Source: Pseudofrankia inefficax
GTDB taxonomy: Bacteria > Actinomycetota > Actinomycetes > Frankiales > Frankiaceae
Direction of reading: 5' to 3'
DNA length: 64,000 nucleotides
NCBI RefSeq assembly: GCF_000166135.1
Contig: NC_014666.1
Span: forward strand, 4,464,001 to 4,528,000
The notes beneath the pieces are model-generated. The model had not been told where the DNA came from. It was given only the letters and a program-made list of their open reading frames with translations, and did no database searches. The position numbers and the translations under genes are program-made. Shown in pieces: positions 3,054-55,900 of the stretch (positions are counted from its first letter, which is position 1; each line of letters opens with the position of its first letter).

Positions 3054-3128
3054 TGATCGCCGTTTCGGCCCTGACATGGCCGTAGAAAGCCGCTGACAAC
3101 AACCACGCGAGGGCCCAAACGGCGATCA
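3054..3128. repeat. 75-bp palindromic element, copy 1
   Basis: Intact copy of the dispersed inverted-repeat family. The left arm is TGATCGCCGTTTCGGCCCT and the right arm is AGGGCCCAAACGGCGATCA, with a 37-bp centre. It lies between the convergent 3' ends of the aldo/keto reductase (ends 3005) and the response regulator (ends 3284). Confidence 0.9.
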
Positions 3129-3134
3129 TGGCCC

Positions 3135-3239
3135 GGGAGCCGGGAGCCGGGAGCCGGGAGCCGGGAGCCGGGAGCCGGGAGCCGGGAGCCGGGAGCCGGG
3201 AGCCGGGAGCCGGGAGCCGGGAGCCGGGAGCCGGGAGCC
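3135..3239. repeat. Heptanucleotide tandem array (GGGAGCC)15
   Basis: Fifteen uninterrupted perfect copies of GGGAGCC start 7 bp after the palindromic element ends and stop 44 bp before the response-regulator stop codon. It is a simple-sequence, VNTR-like tract. A heptamer repeat shifts frame with each unit, so it is not read as coding. Perfect identity of all units implies recent expansion or active slippage. Confidence 0.95.
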
Positions 3240-3283
3240 GGCTACGGCCGGCTGGCCGGCGGTGGCTGGGCTCGGCTGGTGGG

Positions 3284-3919
3284 CTACTTCTCGACGCGGG
3301 CGGCGAAGACCGCGGCCTGGGTGCGGCTGGTCAGTTCCAGCTTGACCAGGATCGAGGAGACGTAGTTCTTCACCGTCTTCTCGGACAGGTGGATCCGGCT
3401 GGCGATCTGCCGGTTGGTGAGGCCCTCGGCGACCAGGTGCAGGATCTCCCGCTCGCGGGTGCCGAGCGCGGCGAGTTTCGGGTCCTGGGTCGGGCCCTCG
3501 CGCAGGCGGGTGAGGACACGCTGGGTGACGGCCGGGTCGAGCAGCGACCGGCCCGCGGCGATCGTGCGGATCGCGCCGATCAGGTCGGTGCCCTTGATCT
3601 GCTTGAGCAGGTAGCCGGCCGCCCCGGCCATGATCGCGGAGAACAGCGCGTCGTCGTCGTCATACGACGTCAGGATCAGGCAGCCGATCTCCGGATGCGC
3701 GGAGCGGATGTCCCGGCAGACGTCGATGCCGCTGCCGTCCTCCAGCCGGGCGTCGAGCACGGCGACGTTCGGCGCGGCGGCCGGCAGCCGCCGCAGGGCC
3801 TCGGCGGCCGTCGACGCCTCGCCGACCACCTGGATGTCGCCGGTGTCCTCGAGCATCTCGCGGATGCCGCGACGCACGATCTCGTGGTCATCCAGCAGGA
3901 ACACCCGCACATCACTCAT
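3284..3919 (-). CDS. NarL/LuxR-family response regulator, DevR (DosR)-like
   Basis: 211 residues. The receiver domain (1-120) has the acidic pair in LLDDHE, the phospho-acceptor Asp in VLDARL (about 54) and Lys in LLKQIKG. A LuxR-type HTH follows (about 145-205; TNRQIASRIHLSEKTVKNYVSSIL). Whole-length similarity is to the mycobacterial DevR/DosR group, including the GRSLLDP and RTQAAVFA segments. No histidine kinase is adjacent, so its partner lies elsewhere. A TATCGT hexamer just upstream of the ATG suggests a leaderless transcript. The dormancy/hypoxia role is inferred from family likeness only. Confidence 0.88.
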   Translation of the reverse strand: MSDVRVFLLDDHEIVRRGIREMLEDTGDIQVVGEASTAAEALRRLPAAAPNVAVLDARLEDGSGIDVCRDIRSAHPEIGCLILTSYDDDDALFSAIMAGAAGYLLKQIKGTDLIGAIRTIAAGRSLLDPAVTQRVLTRLREGPTQDPKLAALGTREREILHLVAEGLTNRQIASRIHLSEKTVKNYVSSILVKLELTSRTQAAVFAARVEK

Positions 3920-4338
3920 GATCCATACGATACCCGGTTCATCCAGCTCAGAGCGGCTCCTCGGGCCTGCCCCTGCCGTTCGGACCAGCCACTACGGGCT
4001 CCGGGACGGGCCGATCGGCCCGGTCGATGGGCCCACTCTACGGGCCAAAATGACCGCCCTGGCGGCCCGTGCGGCCCCTCGTTCCGACGGGCCGTTGGGG
4101 CGGGGCGCCTCATCGGTCGGGAATGGCGCAGGTCGAGAGGTCATGGCCGCGGCCACACCATCGGCTGGCGGCCGGGCGTGGGCCGGTGCCTGACCTTCCG
4201 ACCGGCCACCGAGGTAACCGGGAAACGGACGCGCCCACCGGCCCGGCCCGGCCCGCCGGCCCGGGTGGACCGGGCTGGCGGACGAGTGCCGACGGGCGCG
4301 TCCGTGCGCGCCGGACAAGGCGCGCTCGGCGGCGTCGC
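3920..4338. other. 419-bp gap without a supported gene
   Basis: This lies between two leftward genes (response regulator and azoreductase). Open frames here are arginine/proline-rich and show no domain. Several GGCC/GGGCC short inverted repeats occur, including around 4010-4060, but none forms a clean long hairpin. It should hold the response-regulator promoter at its left edge. Confidence 0.5.
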
Positions 4339-4974
4339 TCAGGCGCCGACGCGGACCTTGACGGCGTCGGTCGCGGCGGCCCGCGAGGCGTGGAACAGCG
4401 GCTGGAACTCGGCCAGCGCCGGGTTGACGGTCGAGAGGGTCATGTGGACGTTGACGAACTCGACGTCGTCGGCGCCCAGCGACTCGACGATGTGGGTCAG
4501 GTACGGCGTCACGTGGTCCCAGCCGTCCTTCGGGGTGCCCGGCCCGTAGGACCCGCCCTGGGAGGTCACGATGGTGACCTTCTTGCCGTTGAGCAGGCCC
4601 GGGTTCGTGCCGTCGGCCATGGTCATGCCCGGGACGATGAGCTGGTCGAGCCAGGCCTTGAGGGTCGAGGCGATCGAGAAGTTGTACATCGGCGCGGTGA
4701 AGACCACCTCGTCCGCGGCGGCCACCTCGCCGATGTAGGTGCTACGGGCCTTGACGGCCTCGACCTGCTCCGGGGTCCGCTGGTCCTCGGGGGTCATCCC
4801 GGCGGAGACGGCGGTCCAGTCCAGGTGCGCCGGGGGCTGAGCCGCGAGGTCGCGGTAGGTGACGATCCCGTCAGGGTTCCGGGCCTGCCACTCGGCGACG
4901 TACTCGCGCGAGACCGCGCGGGAGACGGAGTTGTCGCCGGCGAAGCTCGACTCGATGTGGAGCAGGTGGGCCAT
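4339..4974 (-). CDS. azoR: FMN-dependent NADH-azoreductase
   Basis: 211 residues, normal for AzoR. The flavodoxin-like fold begins LLHIESSFAG. The family FMN-binding loop appears as APMYNFSIAS (about 100) and the second as SQGGSYGPG (about 140). AzoR enzymes reduce quinones and azo compounds with two NADH-derived electron pairs. The gene is divergent from a MarR regulator with a repeat-bearing intergenic region, so it is probably controlled by that regulator as a quinone or electrophile defence gene (inference). Confidence 0.92.
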   Translation of the reverse strand: MAHLLHIESSFAGDNSVSRAVSREYVAEWQARNPDGIVTYRDLAAQPPAHLDWTAVSAGMTPEDQRTPEQVEAVKARSTYIGEVAAADEVVFTAPMYNFSIASTLKAWLDQLIVPGMTMADGTNPGLLNGKKVTIVTSQGGSYGPGTPKDGWDHVTPYLTHIVESLGADDVEFVNVHMTLSTVNPALAEFQPLFHASRAAATDAVKVRVGA

Positions 4975-5035
4975 TGGTGACTCCTCGTGAGGACGTTCGG
5001 GGCGCCCGCTGCCGTGCGGCTTGCCCCTAGATCGG

Positions 5036-5064
5036 CTATAGAACAGATCGTCTATCGAACAGAT
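5036..5064. promoter_or_regulatory. Tandem operator candidate between azoR and marR
   Basis: Two copies of CTATNGAACAGAT (5036-5048 CTATAGAACAGAT; 5052-5064 CTATCGAACAGAT) repeat with 16-bp period in the divergent promoter region. The block also contains the palindrome-like ATAGA-N8-TCTAT. It is AT-rich against its surroundings. Binding by the adjacent MarR protein is inferred. Confidence 0.6.
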
Positions 5065-5128
5065 TAGTTGCTGCGCCGCTCATCGTAAACACTGACGAAC
5101 GGAAGTCATTCCGGGGTACCCTCGTGCG

Positions 5129-5722
5129 ATGGCGCAGCTAACGGGAGCCGGGGCCGACGAGGCCCTCAACGGCCCGTGCGCCGCGGAACCCGACTGTCCT
5201 CCCGCCAACGTCGACGCCCTGGTCACGGACGACATGGCCAGGGACCTCGGCTGGCTGGTCGGCCAGATCCAGCACGGCTACCTGGCCGCCGCGTCGGCGG
5301 CGGTCGACTCGGTGCCGGGCGGCCTGCGCGGCCTGTATGTGCTGGGAGCCTCACTCTGCGGCCGGGCGCCCAACCAGATCGAGGTCGCCCGCCGGTTCGG
5401 GATCGACCGAACGGTCATGGTCCACCTCATCGACCAGATGGAGGACGCCGGCCTCGTCGAGCGCCGGCCCGACCCGGCCGACCGGCGCGCCCGCATGATC
5501 GTCGGCACCGACCACGGCCGGGCCGCCTACGACGCGGCCCAGGACCGGCTGCGTCTCGTGGAGGACCACATCCTCGCTCCGCTGGCCGAGGATGAGCGGG
5601 GCTCGTTCGCCTCGATGGCTCGCCGTGTCGTCGAGCACCTGGTCTCCATCGATCCCACTCAGGCCGAGTCGGCCTGCCAGCGCGCCTCCGGCGAGCTGGA
5701 CAAGCACGCTCCGCTCACCTGA
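5129..5722 (+). CDS. MarR-family transcriptional regulator
   Basis: 197 residues with a central winged helix: NQIEVARRFGIDRTVMVHLIDQMEDAGLVERRPDPADRRA is read in pieces as recognition helix and wing with the classic DPADRR turn. The N-terminal tail of about 40 residues contains two Cys (CAAEPDC) that could sense thiol stress, which is speculative. It is divergent from azoR, a common repressor/reductase arrangement. ATG 5129 is used; the upstream sequence GGGGTACC is a poor ribosome site. Confidence 0.88.
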   Translation: MAQLTGAGADEALNGPCAAEPDCPPANVDALVTDDMARDLGWLVGQIQHGYLAAASAAVDSVPGGLRGLYVLGASLCGRAPNQIEVARRFGIDRTVMVHLIDQMEDAGLVERRPDPADRRARMIVGTDHGRAAYDAAQDRLRLVEDHILAPLAEDERGSFASMARRVVEHLVSIDPTQAESACQRASGELDKHAPLT

Positions 5723-5807
5723 CTCCGGATCTTACGGTCGGCCGCCCGCGCCCGCGCGCCGTTTCGCGCGACGCAGACGCCCTTTCGGCGCGCGGATACT
5801 GGCTCGC

Positions 5808-6200
5808 GTGAGTGATCGCGACCCGCTGCCCCTGGCCGCCGACGAGGACGGTAACCTCCTGGTCGCGTTCCACCAGATCGCTGAGGACGCCGACCTCCGC
5901 GACGCCCCACTGCCCGCGTCCCTGCTCGCCCTCTGGACCGACGACGGCCGCCTCCTGCTGGTGTTCGACCGCCGTCGGCAGCGGTGGGAGCTGCCCGGCG
6001 GGCTGATCGACGCGGGCGAGACAGCGTGCGGCCCCTCGATCTGTACCTGGGACAGCTCGCCCGGCCACGTCTTGGGCGTCTGGCCTGAGTCCACGGGGGC
6101 GCCGCGAGTTGTCCACCCCCGTGGACTCAGGCCTGCTCTGGGGCCGCCTCGGGCCCGGCGCTCTCGGCGGCCTGCTCCGGCCCGTCGGACGGGGGGCTGA
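5808..6200 (+). pseudogene. Truncated Nudix hydrolase gene
   Basis: The frame from GTG 5808 encodes a normal Nudix N-terminal half (SLLALWTDDGRLLLVFDRRR, WELPGGLIDAGET). The Nudix box breaks off after GET at about 6022: the expected REL-EE-G residues are absent and the rest of the frame (to 6200) is unrelated. One frame over, the sequence reads DLYLGQLARPRLGRLA and stops at 6085-6087, so an internal deletion is possible. The missing catalytic glutamates make enzyme activity unlikely. The frame runs through a hairpin into the 3' end of the opposite gene. Confidence 0.7.
6082..6133. terminator. Long hairpin at convergent gene ends
   Basis: Perfect 18-bp inverted repeat: GGCCTGAGTCCACGGGGG (6082-6099) and its complement (6116-6133), with a 16-nt loop. 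The right arm includes the stop codon of the leftward gene ending at 6127. It is probably a bidirectional terminator; no U-tract, as is usual in high-GC actinobacteria. Confidence 0.7.
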
Positions 6201-7020: not shown

Positions 7021-7101
7021 GACCGCTCTCCTTGGGCGAGGGCGCGGCACTATCACAGCGAGCACAGCCTAACAACGTCTCGGCGGCCGATGACGGCACA
7101 T

Positions 7102-7117
7102 CCTCGGATATCCGAGG
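7102..7117. promoter_or_regulatory. 16-bp perfect palindrome, operator candidate
   Basis: CCTCGGATATCCGAGG lies in the region upstream of the leftward TetR-like gene (start 7020). It is the only site in this gap with dyad symmetry and low local GC at its core. An operator role is inferred. Confidence 0.5.
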
Positions 7118-7344
7118 ACGGGCATGGGAGCACGTCGCTGAAAGGACGCGACCGCGAGCTGGCTCGGCCTTTCGGACTACGCAAGGCTTAGCCCCGACGA
7201 CGGGGCGTGGGGAACCCGCCACGTGGTCGTGGGCGCTGGGGGGTGTCCACGCAGGGAGGGCCGGCCGGGGCCAGCGTCTCAGACCTTCTACGGGGGGGAT
7301 GGTCTGAGCCGCTGTCCCCGGTGGCTCGAAACGCTCACACTCAT

Positions 7345-7378
7345 GATCCCCGCCGGCTCCTGGCGCCCGGCGGGGATC
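7345..7378 (-). terminator. Terminator hairpin of the ABC-F gene
   Basis: GATCCCCGCCGG (7345-7356) pairs perfectly with CCGGCGGGGATC (7367-7378) across a 10-nt loop, 60 bp downstream of the leftward stop at 7439. Confidence 0.65.
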
Positions 7379-7438
7379 AGTCGTCTCCGGAGGCTTCGTC
7401 TCCGGGGGCTTCTGCCCGCCGCGCGGGCGCCCGTGGGC

Positions 7439-9106
7439 CTACAGGGCCGACTCGGTGACCTGGCCGGCCTCGACGTGCAGGCGGCGGGTGACGCGGACGG
7501 CGTCGAGCATCCGGCGGTCGTGGCTGACCAGCAGCAGCGTGCCCGGGTAGGTCTCGAGCGCGGACTCCAACTGCTCGATCGCCGGCAGGTCGAGGTGGTT
7601 CGTCGGCTCGTCGAGCACGAGGCAGTTGACCCCGACGGCCTGCAGCAGCGCGAGCCCGGCCCGGGTCCGTTCGCCGGGGGAGAGGGCACCCGCCGGCCGG
7701 GTCATCTGGTCGGCGGCCAGGCCGAACTTGGCGAACAGGGTGCGCACCTCGGCCATCACCCAGCCGGTGGCCTCCTCGGCGATCGTGAGCGTCGTCTTCT
7801 CGCCGCGGAACCGGTCCCGGGCCTGGTCGACCTGCCCGACGCGCACGCCCGAGCCGAGCGTCGCCGTCCCGGCGGCCAGCGGCACCCGGCCCAGCAGCGC
7901 GGCGAGCAGCGTCGACTTGCCGCCGCCGTTCGGCCCGGTGATGACGACACGGTCCGCCCAGGACAGCGTCAGGTCGACCGGCCCGAGCCGGAAGCCGCCC
8001 GCCGTGGCGGCCGGCTCCGCCGGGTACTCGACGACCGCGCCGGCCAGAGTGGCGACCACGTCGCCGGAGCGGGGCGCCGCGGCGATCGTCATCCGCAGCT
8101 GCCACTCCTTGCGCGGCTCGTCGACCTCCTCCAGCCGGTTCAGCTTCGTCTCCAGGTTGCGGACCCGGGACGCGCTCTTCGTCGCCGCCTCGATCTTGTA
8201 GCTGCGCACCGACCGGTCGTTGTCCGGGACCTTCCGCTTGGCCCGGATCGCGCCGCGCACCGACTGCTCGCGCTGGCGCTGCACCTGGGAGACCAGGCCG
8301 GCCCGGGTGTCCGCGTAGTCCTCGTAGCGTTCGCGGGCATGCCGGCGGTCGATGTCGCGCGCCTCCAGGTAGGCCTCCCAACCGCCCGCGTAGTGGGTGA
8401 CGTCGCGGCGGTGCTGGTCGATCTCGGCGACGCTGTCGATCACCCGGTCGAGGAAGGCCCGGTCGTGGCTGACGACGACCAGCGCGCCGGAGATCCCGGT
8501 GACGAACCGTTCCAGCCGTTCGAGGCCGTCGAAGTCCAGGTCGTTCGTCGGCTCGTCGAGCAGGGTGATGTCGAAGCGGGACAGCAGTACCGCGGCGAGT
8601 GACCCGCGGGCGGCCTGGCCGCCGGAGAGCGCGGTCGTCGGCGCGTCCAGCGCGTCCGCGGGCAGGCCCAGCTCGGCGCAGACCTGCTCGGCACGCACAT
8701 CGAGGTCGGCGCCGCCGATCGCGAGCCACCGTTCGAGGGCCACGGCGTAGGCGTCGTCGGCGCCGGCGCGGCCCTCGGTGAGCGCCTCGGTGGCCTCGTC
8801 GAGGGCGGCCTGCGCGGCGGCGACGCCGGTGCGCCGCTCCAGGAAGGCGCGCAGCGTCTCGCCGGGGCGGCGGTCCGGCTCCTGCGGCAGCAGGCCGACG
8901 TTGGCCGACGGTGGCGAGAGCTCGACCCGGCCTGCGTCCAGCACCGCCTGGCCGGCCAGGGACCGCAGCAGCGTCGACTTGCCGACCCCGTTGGGGCCGA
9001 CGACGCCGACCCGGTCGCCCGGCGCGACAGTGAGGTCCACTCCGTCGAGGACCACCTGCCCTCCGCGGACGACGGACAGGCCAGAGGCGACAAGGGTGGC
9101 GGACAC
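7439..9106 (-). CDS. ABC-F family ATP-binding protein (ribosome-associated ATPase)
   Basis: About 555 residues, no membrane segments, two ABC modules in one chain. Walker A GPNGVGKST and GPNGGGKST; signatures ALSGGQAARGS and ALSPGERTRAG; Walker B TLLDEPTNDLD and LVLDEPTNHLD. The inter-domain linker is charged. This is the ABC-F layout (EttA/Vga/OleB-like): such proteins act on the ribosome exit site, and many protect against antibiotics. GTG 9106 starts right before the first beta strand (SATLVASGLSVVRG). The frame is open upstream to 9274, so a longer N-terminus is possible. Its antibiotic spectrum is not predictable here. Confidence 0.88.
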   Translation of the reverse strand: MSATLVASGLSVVRGGQVVLDGVDLTVAPGDRVGVVGPNGVGKSTLLRSLAGQAVLDAGRVELSPPSANVGLLPQEPDRRPGETLRAFLERRTGVAAAQAALDEATEALTEGRAGADDAYAVALERWLAIGGADLDVRAEQVCAELGLPADALDAPTTALSGGQAARGSLAAVLLSRFDITLLDEPTNDLDFDGLERLERFVTGISGALVVVSHDRAFLDRVIDSVAEIDQHRRDVTHYAGGWEAYLEARDIDRRHARERYEDYADTRAGLVSQVQRQREQSVRGAIRAKRKVPDNDRSVRSYKIEAATKSASRVRNLETKLNRLEEVDEPRKEWQLRMTIAAAPRSGDVVATLAGAVVEYPAEPAATAGGFRLGPVDLTLSWADRVVITGPNGGGKSTLLAALLGRVPLAAGTATLGSGVRVGQVDQARDRFRGEKTTLTIAEEATGWVMAEVRTLFAKFGLAADQMTRPAGALSPGERTRAGLALLQAVGVNCLVLDEPTNHLDLPAIEQLESALETYPGTLLLVSHDRRMLDAVRVTRRLHVEAGQVTESAL

Positions 9107-10237: not shown

Positions 10238-10627
10238 GGCGTCTCCTGCTGTTGGCGGGAACGCCCCCGAGTGGTGCCGGCGGGCCGGCTGCGGTTCGTC
10301 CGGGGTGTGTCAGTGGGCCGTCTGGCCGCGGGTGGTGCCGTGGTCCTCCGATGGGTCACCGTAGTCGCTGGTGGCGGGGCCGGGAGGCTGGCTGTGGATA
10401 CCGGAGCGCCGGCCACAGCGATCGCGGCCGAAGGGCCGGGACTGGGGTTCCGGTGGGCCCGCCGACCGGCGTGGGTGACCGGCCGGGGACCGGGTGTCTG
10501 GGAGCGGGCGCGGCGACCTGCGGAGCGTTGCCCCCTATGGCTTTCGGCCGCGCACCGCTCGGACGAGCCGGGCCGGATGGTGCCTGGTGCCGCCTCCGGC
10601 GAGCTTCGCCCGTTCCGGCGTCCCCAT
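10238..10627. other. 390-bp gap without a supported gene
   Basis: Upstream region of the DUF4262 gene. Open frames are compositionally biased shadows. No strong hairpin or operator is seen, and the degenerate palindromic element follows at 10628. Confidence 0.45.
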
Positions 10628-10701
10628 GATCGCCGATTCGGCCCTGGGATGGTCGTGTCCTGCGCTGTCGCACAGCCACCAGAGGGCGTAGTCAGCGGTC
10701 A
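10628..10701. repeat. Palindromic element, degenerate copy
   Basis: The left arm TGATCGCCGATTCGGCCCT is well conserved and the inner motif TGGTCGTG is present. The right arm is decayed (AGAGGGCG...GGTCA) and the length is 74. It lies between two leftward genes (msrB end 10751, DUF4262 start 10237), not at a convergent junction. Confidence 0.75.
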
Positions 10702-12495: not shown

Positions 12496-15321
12496 TTAGC
12501 TGTCGCCGGTGGCGGTCTGCTGGACGGGTGCGTCGACGGTGGTGGCACCGTTGGGGCTGGCGCCGTTGGCCGTTGTGGGTACCGCGGCTCCCCCGGTTGG
12601 TGTGGCCTTGGTCACCTGTGGGGCGGGCGCCGTCGGGGTGACGAGGGCCGGCTCGGGGGTCGGTGACGGTACTTTCACCGGCGGTGGCGGCGTGGGGCGC
12701 AGCGTTCCCGGTCCGCGGCGGCCGGAGGCGACGGCCCACAGGGCGGTGCGCCAGAACGCCTCGACGATGATGGAGCGGCTCATCTTGGAGGCGCCGCGTT
12801 CGCGTTCGACGAAGGTGATGGGGACCTCGGCGACCTGGAAGCCCTGGCGCCAGGCGGTCCAGGCGAGGTCGACCTGGAAGCAGTAGCCCTGGGACTGGAT
12901 CTGGTTGAGGTCGCGGGCGCGCAGCACGTCGGCGCGGTAGGCGCGGTAGCCGGCGGTGGCGTCGCGCATCGGGATGCCGAGGGCCGCGCGGACGTAGAGG
13001 TTGGCGCCGCGGGACAGGATCAGGCGGCTGCGCGGCCAGTTGCGGACCTTGCCGCCGGGGACCCAGCGGGAGCCGATGACGAGGTCGGCGGTGGCGAGCC
13101 GGGCGAGCAGCCGGGGCAGCTCCTCGGGCTGGTGGGAGCCGTCGGCGTCCATCTCGACGACGACGTCGTAGCCGTGGCGCAGCGCCCAGGAGAAGCCGGC
13201 GACGTAGGCGGAGCCCAGGCCGGACTTGCCCGCGCGGTTGAGGACGTGGATCTGGGGGTCCTCGCGGGCGAGCTCGTCGGCGATCTGGCCGGTGCCGTCG
13301 GGGCTGTTGTCGTCGATGACGAGCAGGTCGACGGTGGGGTTGGCCTCGCGGAGCCTGCGCGCCGTACGGGTGAGGTTCTCCCGTTCGTTGTACGTCGGCA
13401 CGCAGACAACTACCCGGTGGGCGTCCACGCCGTTCCTTTCCTGTCCGCGGCCGTCGGGCCGGTGGCCTGTCCGCGGGTCGGCCTGGGGCCCGCGCGCGTC
13501 GTGCCGCGCGGGGGAGGCGTCTCGCGGGGTGCCGTCGTGGTCAGGGCCGGTGTGCCGCGGACCGGTGGTGGTCGCTGGCCGTGGGCGCCGGCGCCCGGTG
13601 GCGATTCCAGCAATAATGGCCGCCGCTCCCAGGGCGGTCGCGACCGCCTCCGGGATGGCGCCGACCCGGTCGGCGAGGGTGCGGGCGGTGCGTAGTGGCA
13701 GTGCGGCGGAGAGTATGCCGGGTTCGTAGAGGCCGGTCTGCGCGAGGACGGTGCCGTCGGGGTTGATGATCGCGCTCTGGCCGCTGGTGGAGACCTGGAT
13801 GGTGGCGCGGCCGTGCTCGACGGCGCGGATCCGGGTCATGGCGAGTTGTTGCTGGCTTTCGCCCTTGCGGCCGAAGGAGGCGTTGTTCGTCTGGACGACG
13901 AGGAGGCGGGCGCCCTGGTCGACGGATGCGCGGACGTTGCCGTCGTAGGCGACCTCGAAGCAGATGACGTCGCCGATGACGGTGTGGGCGGCGGGCAGGA
14001 CGGCGGGGCCGGTGCCGTGGACGAAGTCGTTGGGCATCTCGTCGGCGAACCGTTTGATCAGTTTCTGCAGGACCGACCGGCCGGGGAGGTACTCGGCGAA
14101 CGGGACGGGCCGGTGCTTGACGTACATCTCGCCGCTGAAGCCGGTGGGGGTCCACAGGAGGCCGGCGTTGCGGACGTGGCCGCGGCCGGGGCCGTCGAGG
14201 ACGGCGCCGACGAGGACGTCGGTGCCGACGGCCTGGGCGGCCTCGTTGAGGAGGTTCGCGGCGTCGGGGTTGAGGAACGGGTCGACGTCGGAGGAGTTCT
14301 CGGGCCAGACGACGAGGCCGGGGGCCGGGATGTTCCCGGCGCCGACCTGGGCGGCGAGTTTCAGGGTCTGGTCGACGTGGTTGCTGGTGACCTGGAGGCG
14401 CTGGCCGAGGGCGTCGTAGCCGCCGGGTTCGTGGACGCCGCCCTGGATCGCGGCGACCCGCAGGGTGCCGTCCTGGGCGCCGGTGGGCAGCGGGACGGCG
14501 AGGCCGGCGACGGCGAGGGCGAGGATGCCGACGACCGGCAGGAGGGCGCCGAGGGCGATCAGGCGGCCCGTCGGCCGGGCGGCGGGCGGCTGGTCGGCGG
14601 GGGCGGAGCCGGGGACGCCGAGGTGGCGGGTGAGTGCCGCGCGGCCGGTGGCGGCCAGGGTGGTGAGGGTGAGGGCGAGCAGGGCGCCGGTGGCGGCGAC
14701 GGCGAAGGTGAGGGTGGGGGCGCCGGCGACGGCGGCGAGGGGCGTGTAGGGGCTGTGGGGCTGGCTGAACGCGAGGCGGCCCCAGGGGAAGCCGCCGAAC
14801 GGTTCGCGGCCGCGCAGGGCTTCCTGGCCGATCCAGACGCAGCCGACGGCGGCCCAGGCGTACCGGGGCTTCAGGCGCAGGGCGAGGGTCGTCGCGGGTC
14901 CGACGATCGCGAGGATGGCGGCTTCGCCGGCGGCCAGGACGATCAGGGCGTCCAGGCCGACGTAGTCGACGAACCGCAGCAGTGGCAGGAAGAACCCGAG
15001 GCCGAACAGGACGGCGAGGCCGTAGGCGCCGCGTAGCCGGCGGCCGCGGACGAGCAGGGTGAGCCCGGCGACGGCGACGGGGGCGAGTGGCCAGGCGCCG
15101 ACCGGGGGGAAGGCGAGGTAGAGCAGGAATCCGGCGGCGAGCGCGGCGGCGGCGCGCAGCGCGGTGGCCGGGTGGGGTGGCCGCGGCCGGCGGCGTCGGG
15201 TGCGTGCCGGGCCGCCGGGGTCTGGGCCGTCCGCGGGGAGGCCGGGGGCCGGCGGCGCGCCGGGCGCGGTGGCGGCGGGGGTCGGGCCGGTGGGCGCTGG
15301 GGCTGCGGACGGCGGTGTCAC
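12496..15321 (-). CDS. ppm1: Fused apolipoprotein N-acyltransferase / polyprenol-phosphate mannosyltransferase
   Basis: 941 residues in one chain. After a proline-rich N-tail come several membrane helices (about 50-285). Then comes a carbon-nitrogen hydrolase domain with the Glu-Lys-Cys triad (VVWPENSS, YVKHRPVPFAEY, DVICFEVAYD), as in Lnt. From about residue 637 a GT2 domain follows (VCVPTYNERENL, VIDDNSPDGT, VEMDADGSHQPEE, GSRWVPGG), as in Dpm/Ppm synthases. The Pro-rich tail is probably unstructured. It acylates lipoproteins and makes polyprenyl-P-mannose for glycolipids and protein mannosylation. The fusion equals M. tuberculosis Ppm1. Confidence 0.95.
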   Translation of the reverse strand: MTPPSAAPAPTGPTPAATAPGAPPAPGLPADGPDPGGPARTRRRRPRPPHPATALRAAAALAAGFLLYLAFPPVGAWPLAPVAVAGLTLLVRGRRLRGAYGLAVLFGLGFFLPLLRFVDYVGLDALIVLAAGEAAILAIVGPATTLALRLKPRYAWAAVGCVWIGQEALRGREPFGGFPWGRLAFSQPHSPYTPLAAVAGAPTLTFAVAATGALLALTLTTLAATGRAALTRHLGVPGSAPADQPPAARPTGRLIALGALLPVVGILALAVAGLAVPLPTGAQDGTLRVAAIQGGVHEPGGYDALGQRLQVTSNHVDQTLKLAAQVGAGNIPAPGLVVWPENSSDVDPFLNPDAANLLNEAAQAVGTDVLVGAVLDGPGRGHVRNAGLLWTPTGFSGEMYVKHRPVPFAEYLPGRSVLQKLIKRFADEMPNDFVHGTGPAVLPAAHTVIGDVICFEVAYDGNVRASVDQGARLLVVQTNNASFGRKGESQQQLAMTRIRAVEHGRATIQVSTSGQSAIINPDGTVLAQTGLYEPGILSAALPLRTARTLADRVGAIPEAVATALGAAAIIAGIATGRRRPRPATTTGPRHTGPDHDGTPRDASPARHDARGPQADPRTGHRPDGRGQERNGVDAHRVVVCVPTYNERENLTRTARRLREANPTVDLLVIDDNSPDGTGQIADELAREDPQIHVLNRAGKSGLGSAYVAGFSWALRHGYDVVVEMDADGSHQPEELPRLLARLATADLVIGSRWVPGGKVRNWPRSRLILSRGANLYVRAALGIPMRDATAGYRAYRADVLRARDLNQIQSQGYCFQVDLAWTAWRQGFQVAEVPITFVERERGASKMSRSIIVEAFWRTALWAVASGRRGPGTLRPTPPPPVKVPSPTPEPALVTPTAPAPQVTKATPTGGAAVPTTANGASPNGATTVDAPVQQTATGDS

Positions 15322-42587: not shown

Positions 42588-42662
42588 TGGTCGCCGTTTC
42601 GGCCCTGGCGTGGTTGTGATCTGGCTGGCTTCACGACCATCCGAGGGCCGAAACGGCGATCT
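42588..42662. repeat. 75-bp palindromic element, copy 3
   Basis: Intact copy with ends TGGTCGCCGTTTCGGCCCT and AGGGCCGAAACGGCGATCT; the inner arms TGGTTGTG and CACGACCA extend the stem. It lies between the convergent ABC exporter (ends 42548) and MFS gene (ends 42722). Confidence 0.9.
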
Positions 42663-44824: not shown

Positions 44825-44899
44825 TGATCACCGTTTTGGCCCTGTCGTGGTCGTGACCTGGCCGTTTCTGTAACCACCCGAGGGCCGAAACCACGATCA
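44825..44899. repeat. 75-bp palindromic element, copy 4
   Basis: Intact length. The left arm TGATCACCGTTTTGGCCCT and right arm AGGGCCGAAACCACGATCA have each changed at different positions, so pairing near the tips is weaker. Convergent junction of the genes ending at 44776 and 44984. Confidence 0.9.
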
Positions 44900-47630: not shown

Positions 47631-47796
47631 CCCGCCCAGCTGGCGGGACGGCCACACAGCCAGCGGGCCGGTCTTGTTACGGTGCGGGAGGCCGCTACTG
47701 GCGCGGGTGGGTCACCACCGGGGAACGGCCGCGTGACCGTCGACGCCGACCGCCTGGGCCCGCGACGCGAAGGAACCCTTTCGCGTGAGGTGGGCG

Positions 47797-49134: not shown

Positions 49135-49209
49135 TGATCCCCGTTTTCGCCCTGGGGTGGCCGCGAAACATGCTCGGCGACGACCACCAGAGGGCCGAAA
49201 CGGCGATCA
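49135..49209. repeat. 75-bp palindromic element, copy 5
   Basis: Intact copy: TGATCCCCGTTTTCGCCCT left, AGGGCCGAAACGGCGATCA right, with inner GGTGGCCGCG and CGACGACCACC. Convergent junction of the AICAR transformylase (ends 48930) and coiled-coil gene (ends 49240), in addition to the 36-bp hairpin. Confidence 0.9.
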
Positions 49210-50618: not shown

Positions 50619-50693
50619 TTTCGTAACGTCCAGACCGTAGCAGAGACGAAACGCTACGACGGAACGAAACGCTATTGATCGGGAGACGAAAAG
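50619..50693. promoter_or_regulatory. Iteron-like ACGAAACGC cluster
   Basis: ACGAAACGCTA occurs at 50646-50656 and 50664-50674 (18-bp period), ACGAAAAG at 50686-50693, and an inverted TTTCGTAACG at 50619-50628. The block is clearly less GC-rich than its surroundings and lies directly upstream of the coiled-coil gene. Nothing else is seen in 50599-50876. Confidence 0.65.
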
Positions 50694-50876
50694 TCTGACG
50701 CGCGATAAGCTTCGATTCTCGGGCGTCAGAATCTGGACCGGGGGAGCAGCTTTCAGCCGCGCTGCGGACCGCACGGCGGCCAGGGCCCGACCAGTCGAGG
50801 TCGCGGCGATCGTCGCGGTCGTCGGTCATGTGTCGGCGCTGCTGGGACTATGGCTGCGCCTACGATCACGGGCACG

Positions 50877-51791
50877 TCAGGCCGACGCGCACCGGCGGGT
50901 GCGGACCAGGTCGCCGAGCGCGGTGCGACCGCGGTCGATGAGGATCTGGTCCTGGTTGCGCAGGCCGGTGGTCAGGTAGGACACGGCCAGCCGGGCGGTC
51001 AGCAGGAGCAGCAGCCGCTGCTCATCGTCGGTCAGGGGGCGGCCGTAGCCGTCGAGGTACGCCTCGCGCAGGTGCGGCTGGCTGGGCCACAGGGCGCCGC
51101 GGAGCCAGATCATGTCCTGGACGGCGAGGCCGTGTTCGGCGGTCTCGAAGTCGATCAGGGCCAGGGTGGTGGTGACCTGGTCCCAGAGCCAGTTGCGCGG
51201 TGCGGCGTCGCCGTGGAGGTAGACCAGCGGGAGGCCGGCGGCCAGGGCGACCAGGTCGTGGGCGACCTCGGCGACCAGTTCCCGCTCGTCGGGGTGCAGC
51301 AGTTCCTCGGTGGCCTTCAGGCACAGTGCCGCCTCGGCCGCCTGTGCGGTCATCGAGGCGGTGACCTCCTTCCGGGCGCCCTCGGGTGCAGTCTCGGGGT
51401 GGTCGTGCCAGCCCCGCAGCAGGGTGCCGCCCAGGTGGTGGACCCGGGTCTCGATATCGGGGTCCAGCGGCAGCCCGCGCACCACGGCGCCGGGGACCGC
51501 GGTGGTCAGCAGGGCGAGGGTGCGGGTGTCGTAGGCGATCAGGCGGGGGGCCGCGGTGGGGGGCAGTGCCGCCCTGGCGTGGCGGTGGGCGTGGATCTCC
51601 CGCTCGAAGGCGCGGCGTGAGGGGCTGATCTTGGCATAGACGCTGGTGCTCTCGCCGTCCACGCGCCAGACCTGGGAGGTGCCGCGCGGCCAGGAGGTGT
51701 CGGTGGCCCGGGTGGCGCCGGGCAGGTGCTGCTCGGCCCAGCGGTGCAGGTCCTCGGGGATCGGCGCGGCGGGGGTCAACAGGGTCTCCAA
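50877..51791 (-). CDS. Aminoglycoside phosphotransferase (APH) family kinase
   Basis: About 304 residues. Protein-kinase-like small-molecule kinase: Lys in SVYAKISPS, Brenner motif YLHGDAAPRNWLWD (catalytic Asp, Asn) and metal Asp in LALIDFETAEHG. A resistance role is only one possibility; many APH-fold proteins in actinobacteria phosphorylate other metabolites. The start is weak: TTG 51791 is the only early candidate and no ribosome site is seen. Confidence 0.82.
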   Translation of the reverse strand: METLLTPAAPIPEDLHRWAEQHLPGATRATDTSWPRGTSQVWRVDGESTSVYAKISPSRRAFEREIHAHRHARAALPPTAAPRLIAYDTRTLALLTTAVPGAVVRGLPLDPDIETRVHHLGGTLLRGWHDHPETAPEGARKEVTASMTAQAAEAALCLKATEELLHPDERELVAEVAHDLVALAAGLPLVYLHGDAAPRNWLWDQVTTTLALIDFETAEHGLAVQDMIWLRGALWPSQPHLREAYLDGYGRPLTDDEQRLLLLLTARLAVSYLTTGLRNQDQILIDRGRTALGDLVRTRRCASA

Positions 51792-51960
51792 GGGTGCGGT
51801 CGATCAGCTGCTCCGGAGTCCACTCCAGCCGCACGCCGGCCACCCTAACTGGACGATCACGGCAGGTTAGACGCCAATCACCCAAACGGGCCGAGCGTTC
51901 GAGATGTCACTCAGAGCTACTTTGCGGCTGGTGACACGCACCCGAATCCCGGGCCGTCAA

Positions 51961-51991
51961 CACAGCCATCTGAGGGCCGAATCGGCGATCA
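51961..51991. repeat. Palindromic element, right half only
   Basis: CACAGCCATCTGAGGGCC continuing GAATCGGCGATCA matches the right arm. The 44 bp where the left arm should lie show no match. It is at a tandem junction (AKR gene ending 52039, APH start 51791). Confidence 0.75.
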
Positions 51992-52038
51992 AGGCAGGCG
52001 GCTGCCGCGCGCCGGGATGCAGATGGCGTGTCGTGACG

Positions 52039-52929
52039 TCAGGGCCTCGGGGCGGCCAGCAGCTCCAGCTCGGCCGCGGTGAGCCGCAGGCCCGCGGCGG
52101 CGACGTTCTCCTGGAGATGCCCGGGGTCTCCCGTTCCCGGGATGGCGAGCACGTGCGGTCCCTGCGCCAGCGTCCAGGCGATCCTGACCTGGGCCGTGGA
52201 CACGCCGTGGGTCGCGGCGACCCGGCGCACCGCCTCGTTGTCACCGCCGGCCGCCCTGGCACCGGCCGGGCCGCGAGCGCCGGCTATCGAGAAGAACGGC
52301 ACGAACGCGATGCCCAGCTGGGCGCAGCGGCGCAGGACGTCCTCGCTGTCCCGGACCTCCAGGCCGTAGAGGTTCTGGACACAGACCACCGGGGTGATCG
52401 CCCGCGCCTCGGCGAGGTGCTCGACGGTCACGTTGGAGACGCCGATGTGACGGATGAGCCCGGCGTCGCGCAGCTGCGCGAGTGCGCCGACGTGCTCGGC
52501 GATCGACTCCTGCGAGGACCGGCGGAAGTTCACCACGTCGAGGTGGTCGCGGCCGAGCTGGCGGAGGTTCTCCTCGACCAGCCCGCGCAGCTGGGCCGGG
52601 GTCGCCGTGTACCACTCGCCCCACGGGTGGCGGCCGCCGCCGACCTTCGTCGCGATGACCAGGTCGTCCTGGTAGGGCGACAGCGCCGTGTGGATCAGCT
52701 CGTTCGCCGAGCGGAGCGAGGAGAAGTAGAACGCCGCGGTGTCGATGTGGTTCACACCGAGTTCCCGGGCGAGCCGCAGGACCTTGATGGCGGTGTCCCG
52801 GTCGCTCGGTGTGCCGAGGTCGAACGGCGCGCTGCCCGTCAGGCGCATGGCCCCGAAGCCGAGGCGGTGCACGGTCAGATCGCCGAGGCGCCAGGATCCG
52901 GCCGCCGACGCGTCGACGCTGGCGGTCAT
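52039..52929 (-). CDS. Aldo/keto reductase (YdbC-like)
   Basis: 296 residues, ATG 52929 behind GGGAGG. Asp/Tyr in VNHIDTAAFYFSS, Lys in LVIATKVGG. The usual catalytic His position reads DVVNFRRSS, so His is replaced by Asn, as in the YdbC-type subgroup. C-terminal VLAIPGTGDPGHLQENV is the cofactor phosphate loop. Substrate unknown. Next gene upstream is 72 bp away in the same direction. Confidence 0.9.
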   Translation of the reverse strand: MTASVDASAAGSWRLGDLTVHRLGFGAMRLTGSAPFDLGTPSDRDTAIKVLRLARELGVNHIDTAAFYFSSLRSANELIHTALSPYQDDLVIATKVGGGRHPWGEWYTATPAQLRGLVEENLRQLGRDHLDVVNFRRSSQESIAEHVGALAQLRDAGLIRHIGVSNVTVEHLAEARAITPVVCVQNLYGLEVRDSEDVLRRCAQLGIAFVPFFSIAGARGPAGARAAGGDNEAVRRVAATHGVSTAQVRIAWTLAQGPHVLAIPGTGDPGHLQENVAAAGLRLTAAELELLAAPRP

Positions 52930-53001
52930 CGATGGGCCTCCCAAGGGTCGCGGTAGCCGTCGTCGCACAGGATCCGAGCCGGCCTCCCCTGGGCCGCGCG
53001 C

Positions 53002-53763
53002 TCAGAAGGCGGTGTTGGCGAGCCAGCCGGTCCAGAGGCCGTCATCGCCGACGATCTCCAACGAGCCGTCGTCGGCGGGCAGGCGGCGCAGCAGCGCGAG
53101 CAGCAGGTCGGCCGCGGCCGCGCGGACGGCGGTGTCGCCCTTGCCGTGGCCGTGGTCCCAGGTGATCCCGCCCGGCCCGCCACGAACCGTCCATTCCCCG
53201 TCGGAGCCGAGGCCGCCGTCGGTCGCGTGCAGGTGCAGCGTGGCGCCGTCGCGCAGGGCGGTGCCGTCGGGGCGGGCGGCGAGAAGGCCGAGCCATTCGG
53301 ACACCCCGTCCGCCGCGAGCGCCGGCTCGACGGTGTAGCCCGTTCCCAGCGCGAGGGCGGCGTCGACGCGGTGGACGACCGCCTCGTAGAGCCGTCGCCG
53401 GACCCACCAGTGGGCCGGCCGCGGGCCGGTGAACGTCCACACCGGCGCGTCGGGATCGACGGCGACCGCGTCGAGCAGCAGCGCCGGGCTCTCACGCAGC
53501 CAGGCCACCGCGCCGTCGGCCGGTGGCTTGCCGCCCGCGACCGTGCGTGGGTCGATGATGTCGACGGCCCGTGCCTCGACCATCGCCGCGGCCCAGCGAT
53601 GACCACGCCCGACGTGGCGCATCAACTGGGTCAGGTCCCAGCCCGGGCAGGTCGGAACCGGCGTGGCCAGATCGGCGTCGCCGAGCAGATCGGCGAACAG
53701 GTCGTTCTGCTCCACCAGAGCGGCAGCGTGGTCCACGACTGGCACCGTACGCCGATCAGGCAT
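53002..53763 (-). CDS. Maleylpyruvate isomerase / mycothiol-dependent DinB-like protein
   Basis: About 253 residues. The N-terminal MDMPI helical bundle (HAAALVEQNDLFADLLGDADLATPVPTCPGWDLTQLMRHVGRGHRWA in parts) carries the GW-L--H metal pattern. The C-terminal part (SEWLGLLAARPDG, LHLHATDGG, ADLLLALLRRLPAD) matches the MDMPI_C SCP-like domain. The family includes mycothiol-dependent isomerases and many proteins without assigned reactions. ATG 53763 is chosen; GTG starts slightly downstream are possible. Confidence 0.85.
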   Translation of the reverse strand: MPDRRTVPVVDHAAALVEQNDLFADLLGDADLATPVPTCPGWDLTQLMRHVGRGHRWAAAMVEARAVDIIDPRTVAGGKPPADGAVAWLRESPALLLDAVAVDPDAPVWTFTGPRPAHWWVRRRLYEAVVHRVDAALALGTGYTVEPALAADGVSEWLGLLAARPDGTALRDGATLHLHATDGGLGSDGEWTVRGGPGGITWDHGHGKGDTAVRAAAADLLLALLRRLPADDGSLEIVGDDGLWTGWLANTAF

Positions 53764-53828
53764 CCGGACACGCCGCGGGCCAGCCGGACTCGACGGGCCC
53801 GACGCGAGATGTCGCAAGGCCCGGGCGG

Positions 53829-54635
53829 TTAGAGAAGGTCCTCAAGCCGGGTCGCGACCTGGCGGTAGCGGCTGACCGGGACGAGGTGCACACCGGCGAA
53901 GGCGCCGCTGTCGCGCAGCCGCAGCACCTGGTCGCAGGCCGCTTCGACCCCGGCCGCCCGGTCCCGTTCGACCGCCTGGACGAGGTCGTCGGGGATGTCG
54001 ATGTCGGGGATGGTCGCGGCGAGGCGGCGGGCCATCCCGGCGCTCGCGAGGACCATGACGCCCGCGTAGACCGGTAGTTCGACCGGATGGGCGTCGCGCC
54101 AGCGCAGCAGGGCGTCCACCGAGTAGCTGACCTGCACGAACAGGAAGTCGGCCGCTCGTTTCCAGGTGGGCAGTGGACGCAGGCCGGCCGCGGCGCCGAC
54201 CCGGAACGCCGGCGTGTCCGCGAACACCGGGTCGGCGCTGGCCGCGCGGGCCTCGTCCATCATCGCGCGCACGGTCAGGTCGCTGGTCCGGTTCCCGGCG
54301 GTGGGTTTGTCGCCGTGGACGAACAGGAACTCCTCGACGCCGTAGGCAGCGGCGGTGAGCAGGTCGCGGCGGAAGCCGAGCAGGTTGCGGTCGCGGGAGT
54401 TCACGCACGCGATGCTGCGCCCGCCCATCGTCGCCACCTCGTGGGCGACGGCGATGCTCGACACCGTCGCGCGTCCGATGTGGTTGTCGGGAATCAGGAA
54501 CGCGTCGGTGACGGGGCTCAGGACGCCGATCTGGTGTCGGGCGTGGGTCAGGTCCGGCCGGGTCGGCGGCTCGATCTCGCAGATCAGCTCGAAGCCGCGC
54601 TCCGGACGTTCGTGACCCGCCGTGGATTCCTGCAC
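53829..54635 (-). CDS. Methylenetetrahydrofolate reductase (MetF)-like protein
   Basis: 268 residues. TIM-barrel MTHFR pattern: ELICEIEPPTRPDLTHA, SIACVNSRDRNLLGFRRDLLTAAAYGVEEFLFVHGDKP in parts, DFLFVQVSYSVDALLRW and a C-terminal GVHLVPVSRY. It lacks the typical MetF N-terminus, so it is a divergent homologue that may use another folate or flavin substrate. GTG 54635 has a TATCCT hexamer 9 bases upstream and no ribosome site, consistent with leaderless translation. Confidence 0.85.
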   Translation of the reverse strand: MQESTAGHERPERGFELICEIEPPTRPDLTHARHQIGVLSPVTDAFLIPDNHIGRATVSSIAVAHEVATMGGRSIACVNSRDRNLLGFRRDLLTAAAYGVEEFLFVHGDKPTAGNRTSDLTVRAMMDEARAASADPVFADTPAFRVGAAAGLRPLPTWKRAADFLFVQVSYSVDALLRWRDAHPVELPVYAGVMVLASAGMARRLAATIPDIDIPDDLVQAVERDRAAGVEAACDQVLRLRDSGAFAGVHLVPVSRYRQVATRLEDLL

Positions 54636-54749
54636 CCGGACAGGATAAGGCGCCACGATCCGCCCACCGGCCACGGCCACGGCGAGCCGGGCAGCGACTG
54701 CCGGTGCAGGCGGCCCGTGGCTGTTCCCCGCGCCGGGCCCGGACGGGTT

Positions 54750-54950
54750 CACGGGTCCCTCAAGGCCGATCCGGCCGACATCCGCGCCACTGTCGACGAG
54801 CTGCTGGCCAAGGGACTGCTCGTCACGCAGGGCCCGCACATCCGGCCCACGGACGCGGGGCACGCGCTGATGGCCACCGTCACCGCGGAGACCGCCCCGG
54901 TGACCGCCCGCGTCTGGGGTGGGATCTCCGCCCGGGAACATCGGTGCCGC
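54750..54950 (+). pseudogene. MarR-type regulator remnant
   Basis: One frame reads ADPADIRATVDELLAKGLL, then VTQGPHIRPTDAGHALMATV and APVTARVWGGISAREHR, the wing and C-terminal helix of a MarR-type winged-helix protein. No start or recognition helix is found upstream, and the frame loses similarity where the palindromic element begins at 54959. It is a decayed 3' fragment. Confidence 0.6.
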
Positions 54951-54958
54951 CATCGGCA

Positions 54959-55033
54959 TGATCGCCGTCTTGGCCCTCGCATGGTTGTGGGAAGACCCGA
55001 TTCACGACCACCAGAGGGCGAAAACGGCGATCA
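54959..55033. repeat. 75-bp palindromic element, copy 6
   Basis: Intact copy: TGATCGCCGTCTTGGCCCT left, AGGGCGAAAACGGCGATCA right; inner TGGTTGTG and CACGACCACC. It lies between the rightward MarR remnant and the leftward VOC gene, a convergent arrangement. Confidence 0.9.
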
Positions 55034-55075
55034 CCGCGTCGGGCCGGCCTTCCGCTCCGGCCGGAGGAGTCGTTC

Positions 55076-55813
55076 TCAGGTCCGGGTGAGGACGCAGAAG
55101 TCGTTGCCCTCCGGATCGGCCAGGACTGTCCACGGGACGTCGCCCTGCCCGACGTCGGCGGGCGTCGCGCCGAGGGCTGTCAGTCGGGCTACGTCCGCCG
55201 TCTGGTCGTCGCCGGGGTAAGGCAGCACGTCGAGGTGAACGCGTCCCTTCCAGGTCCGCGCAGCCGGCGTGCGGAGGAACTCCAGATAGGGGCCGACGCC
55301 CTGGGCGGCGCGCAGCCGGGCGTGGGCGTCGGTGATCTCGTGCACGGTCCAGTCGACCGCCTCACCCCAGAATCGGGCCAGGGCACGCGGATCCGCGCAG
55401 TCGACCACCACCGCGGCGATCGGACCGGTGTCCCGGTAGATCTCCCGAGGTTCCAGCACGCAGAACACGTTGCCCTCGGGGTCGGTCAGGACCGTCCACG
55501 GGACGTCGCCCTGGCCTATGTCGGCGGGCGTCGCGCCGAGCTCCCGCAGGCGGGCGACCAGCTCCGTCTGATGGGTGGCGGAGGTGGTCGCGAGATCGAG
55601 GTGCACGCGGTAGTTCACCGTCTCGGGGTCCGGGACCGTGACGACATCGACGCAGACCGCCTCAGGGTTCGGCCAGGTGAACCCCAGGGGTTCGAGGTTG
55701 GTCACCCCGGGTCCTTCGCTGGACATGCCCCAGCCAAGCGCCGCTGCCCAGAACCGGCCGAGCGCCGCGTCATCGCGGGCCTTGACGTTCACCTGCACCA
55801 GCCGCAGCGCCAT
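55076..55813 (-). CDS. Tandem VOC (glyoxalase-like) protein
   Basis: 245 residues, two VOC domains (about 1-120 and 125-245). The domain ends are almost the same: LGATPADIGQGDVPWTVL and LGATPADVGQGDVPWTVL followed by DPEGN-FCVL, showing an internal duplication. Such CPGB-like tandem glyoxalase proteins are common in actinobacteria; a metal-dependent dioxygenase or isomerase role is not assured. ATG 55813; its ribosome site is weak. Confidence 0.88.
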   Translation of the reverse strand: MALRLVQVNVKARDDAALGRFWAAALGWGMSSEGPGVTNLEPLGFTWPNPEAVCVDVVTVPDPETVNYRVHLDLATTSATHQTELVARLRELGATPADIGQGDVPWTVLTDPEGNVFCVLEPREIYRDTGPIAAVVVDCADPRALARFWGEAVDWTVHEITDAHARLRAAQGVGPYLEFLRTPAARTWKGRVHLDVLPYPGDDQTADVARLTALGATPADVGQGDVPWTVLADPEGNDFCVLTRT

Positions 55814-55867
55814 GCCCTCGACCCTAGTGCCGCCTCCGACCGGGTTCGCCTCGTCCCGAGGCCGGCT

Positions 55868-55900
55868 TGATCGCCGTTTTCGCCCTCGCATGGCTGTAGT
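55868..55900. repeat. Palindromic element, left half only
   Basis: TGATCGCCGTTTTCGCCCT then CGCATGGCTGTAG matches the left arm and inner motif. The right half would fall inside the coding end of the gene at 55907-56353. Tandem junction. Confidence 0.75.

Follow-up and report, generated by a model that had tools for sequence, protein, structure and literature searches.

A palindromic repeat of near-constant 75-bp length at gene ends of Pseudofrankia inefficax, a candidate DNA site that seems to be kept in place

Why should a palindrome recur along a bacterial chromosome at one length while its centre changes? The question is raised by a 64,000-nucleotide stretch of Pseudofrankia inefficax (NC_014666.1, positions 4,464,001 to 4,528,000), hereafter the window, in which the first-pass annotation had reported nine copies of such a repeat and listed six of them as intact. 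A search with the 19-bp arm (≤3 mismatches) gave 14 matches in the window versus a mean of 0.03 in shuffled sequence. Rechecked on the sequence, the six listed copies are each exactly 75 bp and lie where they had been placed. The nine sites are likewise present, but they comprise seven full 75-bp elements and two solitary halves, the copy at 10627 having been overlooked:

3054..3128, no strand: full 75-bp element between convergent predicted genes, with strong half-sites (45.3 + 48.4 bits)
10627..10701, no strand: full 75-bp element with a decayed right arm, the overlooked copy; 75-bp ortholog in G002, a close genome
12377..12451, no strand: full 75-bp element; 75-bp ortholog in G002
42588..42662, no strand: full 75-bp element between convergent genes; 75-bp ortholog in G002
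44825..44899, no strand: full 75-bp element between convergent genes; 75-bp ortholog in G002
49135..49209, no strand: full 75-bp element; 75-bp ortholog in G002
51959..51991, minus strand: solitary half-element, a single arm that stops near the dyad centre
54959..55033, no strand: full 75-bp element in a stretch rearranged relative to G002, so that its ortholog is insecure
55868..55900, plus strand: solitary half-element, a single arm that stops near the dyad centre

No described Rfam family matched the 75-bp repeat in the window at the gathering score. The sole Rfam match there was a ZTP riboswitch, away from the repeat copies.

The chromosome holds a few hundred copies of this palindromic repeat, as 254 forward matches carried both 12-bp arms at exactly 75 bp (≤3 mismatches) and the control gave 0. 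Allowing the 37-bp centre any of 31 lengths gave 25 elements in the same genome, of which 24 measured 75 bp and one 73 bp. A gapped model run on about 1.7 Mb, which represents stretches of two genomes and not whole ones, detected 146 full copies, and a hand count of the match lists assigned 135 of them to 75 bp, 7 to 74 bp, and 4 to 76 bp; an ungapped half-site count, blind to length changes outside the central nine columns, placed 135 of 140 at 75 bp. In other Frankia genomes length was looser, with 75 bp in 19 of 23 copies, 74 bp in three, and 77 bp in one. In G025, which belongs to another family, the outer arm and the 75-bp length recurred with different inner arms, and 31 of 32 arm pairs were at 75 bp and one at 74 bp. 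Within the genus, copy number ranged from none to hundreds, and G007 had essentially no copies. The constant length with variable centres described from the window thus holds beyond it, with exceptions of 73, 74, 76, and 77 bp, and the genome search, in which few copies or random lengths would have pointed to ordinary repeat debris, returned many (254) at a near-constant length. The centres, described as strongly different, are not wholly unrelated, and a hidden asymmetric consensus gives the copies an orientation.

In each 37-bp half, TGATCGCCGT, GCCCT, and TGG form three sequence-specific blocks whose spacing is constant; the centre is variable. The consensus of 149 copies begins with TGATCGCCGT, and the GG at columns 25-26 is present in approximately 100% of them; this near invariance indicates that the sequence itself, beyond mere pairing, is kept. 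Just outside both ends, C followed by A or T is preferred. Of 278 sides, a minority showed extended flank motifs, which lie outside the core. Contacts recurring at a strict 11-bp period were considered and dropped, as the final block positions do not fit such a period.

The repeat sits at gene ends and is enriched between convergent genes. None of 140 copies lay inside a gene, and the 135 placed copies were divided into 68 convergent, 55 tandem, and 12 divergent ones, against an intergenic-base background of 15%, 50%, and 35%, respectively. The convergent placement could partly reflect tolerance of insertion after genes. With the origin assumed near base 1, no skew in orientation relative to the replication strand was found among 72 copies.

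Copies at orthologous positions in G002 were then compared. Among 21 ortholog pairs (of 22; the copy at 54959, in the rearranged stretch, was excluded), 29 of 756 conserved columns had changed versus 134 of 819 variable columns (p = 3e-17), and the change rate of the latter did not differ from that of the flanks (349 of 2290; p = 0.47). A single neutral branch alone predicts 57.6 conserved-column changes, whereas 29 were seen on both branches (p = 2e-5); therefore, the use of a matrix to find copies cannot explain the slow conserved columns. The 42 flanks of these pairs required 82 gap openings. In G002, among 24 own-genome copies whose two flanks are both found there, 20 were full and unchanged in length, one had indels, and three were lost, against an indel-free expectation of about one quarter on a single neutral branch (p = 7e-9). 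Judged from these alignments, selection seems to keep the arms and the 75-bp length in place while the centre drifts, and the suggestion of selection made from the window is supported in orthologous copies by both the substitution and the indel tests. At the sites of 42588, 44825, 10627, and 12377, however, the orthologous spots in G001 and G003-G006 hold no copy, and because of these empty spots and the near absence of the repeat from G007, no single site can be essential.

That arms and length seem kept while the middle drifts points to a protein that reads the repeat as DNA. We consider, with a probability of about 0.48, that the repeat is a 75-bp double-stranded DNA dyad at gene ends read by a putative symmetric DNA-binding protein. 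The dyad would consist of two 37-bp half-sites with their blocks at fixed spacing; the binder, like the binding itself, is inferred and would be dimeric or larger. Such a site may act where transcription units end, for instance by forming a block or a topological insulator between convergent genes. A past spread of the repeat is likely; copies probably spread earlier as a small repeat, before this genome and G002 split, and would now be held in place. Sequence-specific half-sites, fixed spacing, and selection in place are all found, as would be expected of a protein-bound dyad. The centre, on the other hand, is asymmetric, which a purely symmetric protein would not need. The sites are also not fixed within the genus, arm pairing shows a small excess, length is looser in other Frankia, and one copy is carried within an insertion bounded by inverted ends, a sign of mobility at some stage. 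It is rather doubtful that the pattern extends further, to rigid 75-bp dyads placed chromosome-wide at gene ends for a putative actinobacterial reader, with the outer half-site and the length shared across families and the inner part exchanged, the two shared features framing insulator or chromosome-organising sites of a new class.

Among known systems, parS, matS, and the gyrase sites in BIMEs are similarly scattered sites held by a binding protein, which is a candidate here; they are shorter or have no fixed length. Bacterial intergenic palindromes have mostly been treated as selfish repeats or RNA hairpins, and the present repeat offers, at the sequence level, a case of several hundred copies in which blocks and length are kept in place and the centre evolves as the neighbouring sequence does. 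Should a protein read the repeat, this would represent an undescribed chromosome-wide site system in actinobacteria. No description of the repeat was recognised in literature on Frankia palindromes, REP or MITE elements, palindrome families, EuI1c, bidirectional terminators, and the arm sequence, a search in which subscription journals were thinly covered. In PMC4447401, four Frankia strains were searched for exact palindromes with gaps of ≤20 bases, a limit that would miss the repeat because its 37-bp centre exceeds that gap.

The alternative that survives best, though we regard it as unlikely, is that of a non-autonomous MITE-like element that amplified before the two close genomes split and is now a fossil, its conserved bases recording the needs of a lost transposase. 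The repeat has the terminal inverted repeats and dispersed copies of a MITE, and such a history would fit its range from none to hundreds of copies among same-genus genomes, the asymmetric ancestry shared by the centres, the empty orthologous spots in other same-genus genomes, the bases preferred just outside both ends, and the recurrence of the outer arm with another interior in G025. In addition, one G002 copy is interrupted by about 290 bp of inserted sequence, bounded by 11-bp inverted ends other than the arms of the repeat and itself carrying a second full copy, and nearest paralogs in G002 reach 94.7%. The median nearest-paralog identity, however, is 84% in this genome (73 sampled copies) and 88% in G002 (76 sampled copies), indicating no recent burst in either. 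Target-site duplications of 2-10 bp, sought in 135 copies, did not exceed shuffled pairing except for two 5-bp matches (versus 0.21, p = 0.01), and 1-bp flank matches numbered 48 versus 39.6 (p = 0.047). Four copies absent from the other genome left no clean empty site, as two of these resemble deletions, one resembles replaced sequence, and one falls in a rearrangement. When the solitary halves in the 1.7 Mb were inspected by eye, no gene-containing element with these arms as its ends was seen. Moreover, a fossil would not be expected to preserve its blocks and length when its centre has changed as fast as the flanks. Current transposition is not shown, clear support being found neither in duplications and empty sites nor in a Y1 transposase of the carriers.

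Classical insertion-sequence MITEs are likewise small, dispersed, and non-coding with inverted-repeat ends, but the present repeat lacks a clear target-site duplication and is near invariant in length, and a parent insertion sequence was not seen among the solitary halves of the 1.7 Mb. REP/REPIN elements, which are mobilised by RAYT Y1 transposases, share with it high-copy intergenic palindromes in paired and solitary forms; the present repeat, in contrast, is 75 bp, and its consensus (149 copies) lacks a GTAG or CGTC tag at the arm foot, such tags and RAYTs being those described in the main text of PMC3733652, where the word Frankia is absent. The RAYT domain PF01797 had 0 matches in G000-G006 and G025 and one match in G007, where the repeat is essentially absent, and a REPIN/RAYT origin was rejected since the carriers are without PF01797. 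ERIC (127 bp) and YPAL (about 168 bp) resemble the repeat as one long imperfect intergenic dyad of family-wide length, but differ in length, sequence, and host group; 135 of 146 copies here have one length, whereas Yersinia pestis ERIC ranges from 69 to 127 bp in a table of PMC2267715, from whose main text the word Frankia is also absent. One element queried against phage and plasmid collections matched nothing in either.

The DNA-dyad reading also has to be weighed against one in which an RNA hairpin, working in both directions at the 3' ends of genes, stops transcription or shields the ends of mRNA; this we regard as improbable. Copies do follow stop codons and are enriched between convergent genes, and the predicted fold is strong (mean -46.8 kcal/mol on one strand and -48.0 kcal/mol on the other); it exceeds that of re-dealt arms by about 1 kcal/mol, and 2 of 60 re-deals reach it. 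A slight pairing excess was detected in 73 oriented own-genome copies (0.786 versus 0.773, p = 0.014), with p = 0.005 at columns 20-23 and, in a thinned set, p = 0.03 (columns 1-19) and p = 0.009 (columns 20-23); 4 of 8 outer-arm double changes in ortholog pairs keep a Watson-Crick pair, and some paired arm changes were seen by eye in G003 and G006 copies. Nevertheless, the two arms vary almost independently. Pairing was 87.7% versus 88.1% with shuffled partners in 23 copies, which amounts to no covariation, and the 73 copies showed little of it; no column block beat re-dealt arms at p < 0.05 in G003 (6 copies) or G006 (9 copies). The covariation for which a check had been suggested from the window was therefore not borne out, compensatory base-pair changes being limited to the small excess above. 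Transcribed-strand mismatches did not prefer G-U over A-C (89 versus 91), the blocks are near invariant in sequence, and T runs of ≥4 within 12 bp occurred on only 2 of 270 sides, unlike the hairpin followed by a T-tract of an intrinsic (Rho-independent) terminator. The stretches from stop codon to element folded like element-free gene ends (mean z -0.60 versus -0.55, p = 0.66), indicating that the element does not replace the genes' own hairpins. A cruder comparison had suggested stronger hairpins before the element; the difference vanished with dinucleotide shuffles and matched lengths. On covariation, G-U bias, T-tracts, and hairpin replacement, folded RNA was rejected as the main reading, so that of the two options offered in the first-pass annotation, a folded RNA or a spaced protein site, the former is not supported and the latter fits as a candidate.

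A recombination or hairpin-processing site, at which central breakage would yield solitary halves and rearrangements, is very improbable. In its favour, the halves stop near the dyad centre, G002 has a full copy at the position matching the half at L102:5920, and the window stretch rearranged relative to G002 contains two halves together with one full copy. Against it, the cases are few, no inversion was traced to two elements, and palindrome instability explains halves without a dedicated system. The 18 unpaired half matches resolved into six full copies in which an arm had decayed or an indel had arisen, four weak matches inside genes, two parts of one split copy, one match cut by the end of a stretch, and five true halves.

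Nine copies of a dispersed 75-bp palindromic repeat had been reported by the first-pass annotation within the window, which spans bases 4464001-4528000 of an 8,815,781-bp single-contig genome. The element is made of two 37-bp halves and has a variable centre. The six copies listed as full each measured 75 bp, and a covariance model together with a position matrix added a seventh full copy, missed by that annotation, and two solitary halves:

10627-10701, full copy with a decayed right arm
51959 (-), solitary half-copy
55868 (+), solitary half-copy

The reversed sequence of the four scanned sets gave zero half-sites over the matrix threshold. When a copy was defined as a pair of 12-bp outer arms spanning exactly 75 bp with ≤3 mismatches, further copies were abundant: 254 in the own genome and 293 in the close relative G002, against 0 for the reversed control in every genome counted. 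Among the other genomes named Frankia on the basis of same-genus assignment (G001-G007), G003 had 33 copies, G001 and G006 19 each, G004 and G005 2 each and G007 0; G025, from another family, had 27. Sampling 400 kb as twenty evenly spaced 20-kb stretches gave 13 copies, equivalent to ~290 per genome.

The length of the element was examined in several ways. With the arms fixed and the centre free over 31 lengths, 24 of 25 elements found genome-wide were 75 bp and one was 73 bp. An ungapped half-site count in two genomes' stretches yielded 140 paired copies (135 of 75 bp, two of 74 and three of 76), but was blind to length changes outside the central nine columns because half-sites were matched without gaps. 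A gapped model, its tallies made by hand from match lists, detected 66 full copies in the stretches from the own genome (60 at 75 bp, four at 74 bp and two at 76 bp) and 80 in those from G002 (75 at 75 bp, three at 74 bp and two at 76 bp). The claimed constancy of length was thus nearly right: 135 of 146 copies in these stretches had 75 bp, the other 11 had 74 or 76, and zero lay beyond that range. A further 23 copies came from loci and stretches in G001 and G003-G006; 19 had 75 bp, three 74 bp and one 77 bp.

The half-site consensus was TGATCGCCGT-TT-Y-GGCCCT-C-NNN-TGG-TYGYGA. In 149 distinct copies, columns 2-5, 16-18 and 25-26, numbered from the outer end, carried a single base at 98-100%, and columns 13, 21 and 33-36 were nearly free. 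The centres do differ strongly, as had been noted, but orienting copies by them revealed a hidden asymmetric consensus around GAAACNGCCCCGGT (log-likelihood -2756 versus -2907 to -2948 for re-dealt halves); the centres therefore share ancestry. Immediately outside the element, both sides preferred C, then A or T. Longer outside motifs, with orthologs of two genomes counted twice, occurred on a minority of 278 sides (GTTCGCCCGTTCCGGCGTCCCCA, 12 at ≤6 mismatches, control 0; CAAGGTCCGCCCGCTGGCT, 24 at ≤5 mismatches, control 1), so some copies may be parts of longer units.

Selection in place was assessed in 22 pairs of orthologous copies from the own genome and G002, with the pair that lies in a rearranged region excluded. 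Across the remaining 21, 29 of 756 sites had changed in conserved columns (1-10, 15-19 and 24-26 of both halves), 134 of 819 in the other element columns and 349 of 2290 in the 60-bp flanks; variable columns changed at a flank-like rate (p = 0.47) and conserved columns ~4 times more slowly (p = 1e-19 versus flanks). Because matrix-based finding of copies might itself produce conservation, a neutral-branch check was run: 57.6 conserved-column changes were expected on one neutral branch alone, compared with the 29 observed on both (p = 2e-5). Both flanks were present in G002 for 24 own-genome copies; there, 20 copies were full, three were missing and one was scored half; the latter (L156:6060), scored by the ungapped matrix, was a 74-bp copy in the gapped model. 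In the reverse comparison, which overlaps this set, 18 of 20 G002 copies were full, one half and one missing. Three of the missing copies could be read: two resembled deletions and one replaced sequence, with a clean empty site at none of them. The 42 flanks needed 82 gap openings, a rate at which ~26% of copies would be indel-free per single branch, compared with 20 of 24 observed (p = 7e-9). A half-element of the own genome had a full counterpart in G002 (L102:5920 and L094:8966), and the deletion ended near the dyad centre.

By our codon-based gene calls, none of 140 copies lay within genes: 68 had convergent neighbouring genes, 55 tandem and 12 divergent ones, and 5 sat at stretch edges. 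Relative to intergenic bases in the same stretches (15% convergent, 50% tandem, 35% divergent), convergent sites were in excess (p = 8e-22) and divergent ones depleted (p = 5e-12). Most stretches had been picked for containing elements; an unbiased grid had 7 copies in convergent, 2 in tandem and 3 in divergent contexts, plus 1 at an edge. Copies lay a median of 61 bp away from stop codons and 219 bp away from start codons.

Each half keeps exact bases in three blocks, the spacing is nearly exact, the centre is free and the arms vary almost independently; this pattern of constraint matches a double-stranded DNA dyad read by a putative symmetric protein, which fits the spaced protein site proposed earlier. 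The dyad may act at the ends of transcription units.

The main rival is a fossil mobile element. The wide copy-number range in the genus, together with the spots of 10627, 12377, 42588 and 44825 being without a copy in G001 and G003-G006, means that the family must have spread at some time, and a mobile fossil probably describes the origin of the repeat; it leaves unexplained, however, why blocks and length stay held in place. No clear target duplication surrounded the copies, Y1 transposases were absent from G000-G006 and G025, and the one element queried matched no phage or plasmid record. Nearest paralogs (median identity 84% in the own genome, 88% in G002) were no closer than orthologs (mean 90%), with the closest G002 pairs reaching 94.7%. 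At L173:5252-5617 of G002, one copy was split by a ~290-bp insert with 11-bp inverted ends (ACCCTGCTGGC) and an ambiguous target duplication; the insert holds another full 75-bp copy (5448-5522), and its inner sequence had no second occurrence in the genome stretches examined.

Folded RNA, also suggested by the first-pass annotation, found no support in tests of pairing, G-U, T-tracts and gene-end folding. Arm pairing equalled shuffled pairing in 23 copies; 73 oriented copies gave 0.786 versus 0.773 for re-dealt arms, an excess mostly in spacer columns 20-23 that persisted after thinning to 45 copies. Folding energy was 1 kcal/mol better than for re-dealt copies, matched by 2 of 60 re-deals. 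This small pairing excess can be explained by shared ancestry or by palindrome correction during replication, a possible source of such pairing. On the transcribed strand in 53 tandem contexts, mismatches showed no G-U preference (89 G-U versus 91 A-C); T-tracts were missing on 268 of 270 element sides, and stop-to-element stretches folded no differently from element-free gene ends.

A comparison of 393 genomes from the class showed copies in number only in Frankia and G025. The latter had 69 arms (GATCGCCGTTTYCATGATC, ≤2 mismatches), of which five were unpaired and the rest formed 32 pairs, 31 spanning 75 bp and the other 74 bp; the outer 12 bp are identical to those of the Frankia repeat, and the inner arm and centre differ. 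Its contexts (24 entries including duplicates) were tandem in 10, divergent in 7 and convergent in 4, with 3 at edges. In L207-L236, this sister repeat has a conserved asymmetric centre near CGACCTGCRG. G237 gave a single match at 3 mismatches, probably by chance, and G050 one shorter match.

At the ortholog spot of the 49135 element, G001 (L100, ~8750-8860) carries a different palindrome of ~50 bp that likewise begins TGATC and ends GATCA. Gene order at 50750-56400, a region containing the two solitary halves and one full element, is rearranged and partly inverted relative to G002. A ZTP riboswitch at 47684-47766 (+), at the gathering threshold (39.3 versus 39), lies directly upstream of an AICARFT/IMPCHase-domain gene, an ordinary and sensible pairing. 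At 12496-15321 (-), one frame joins apolipoprotein N-acyltransferase domains to a family 2 glycosyltransferase domain.
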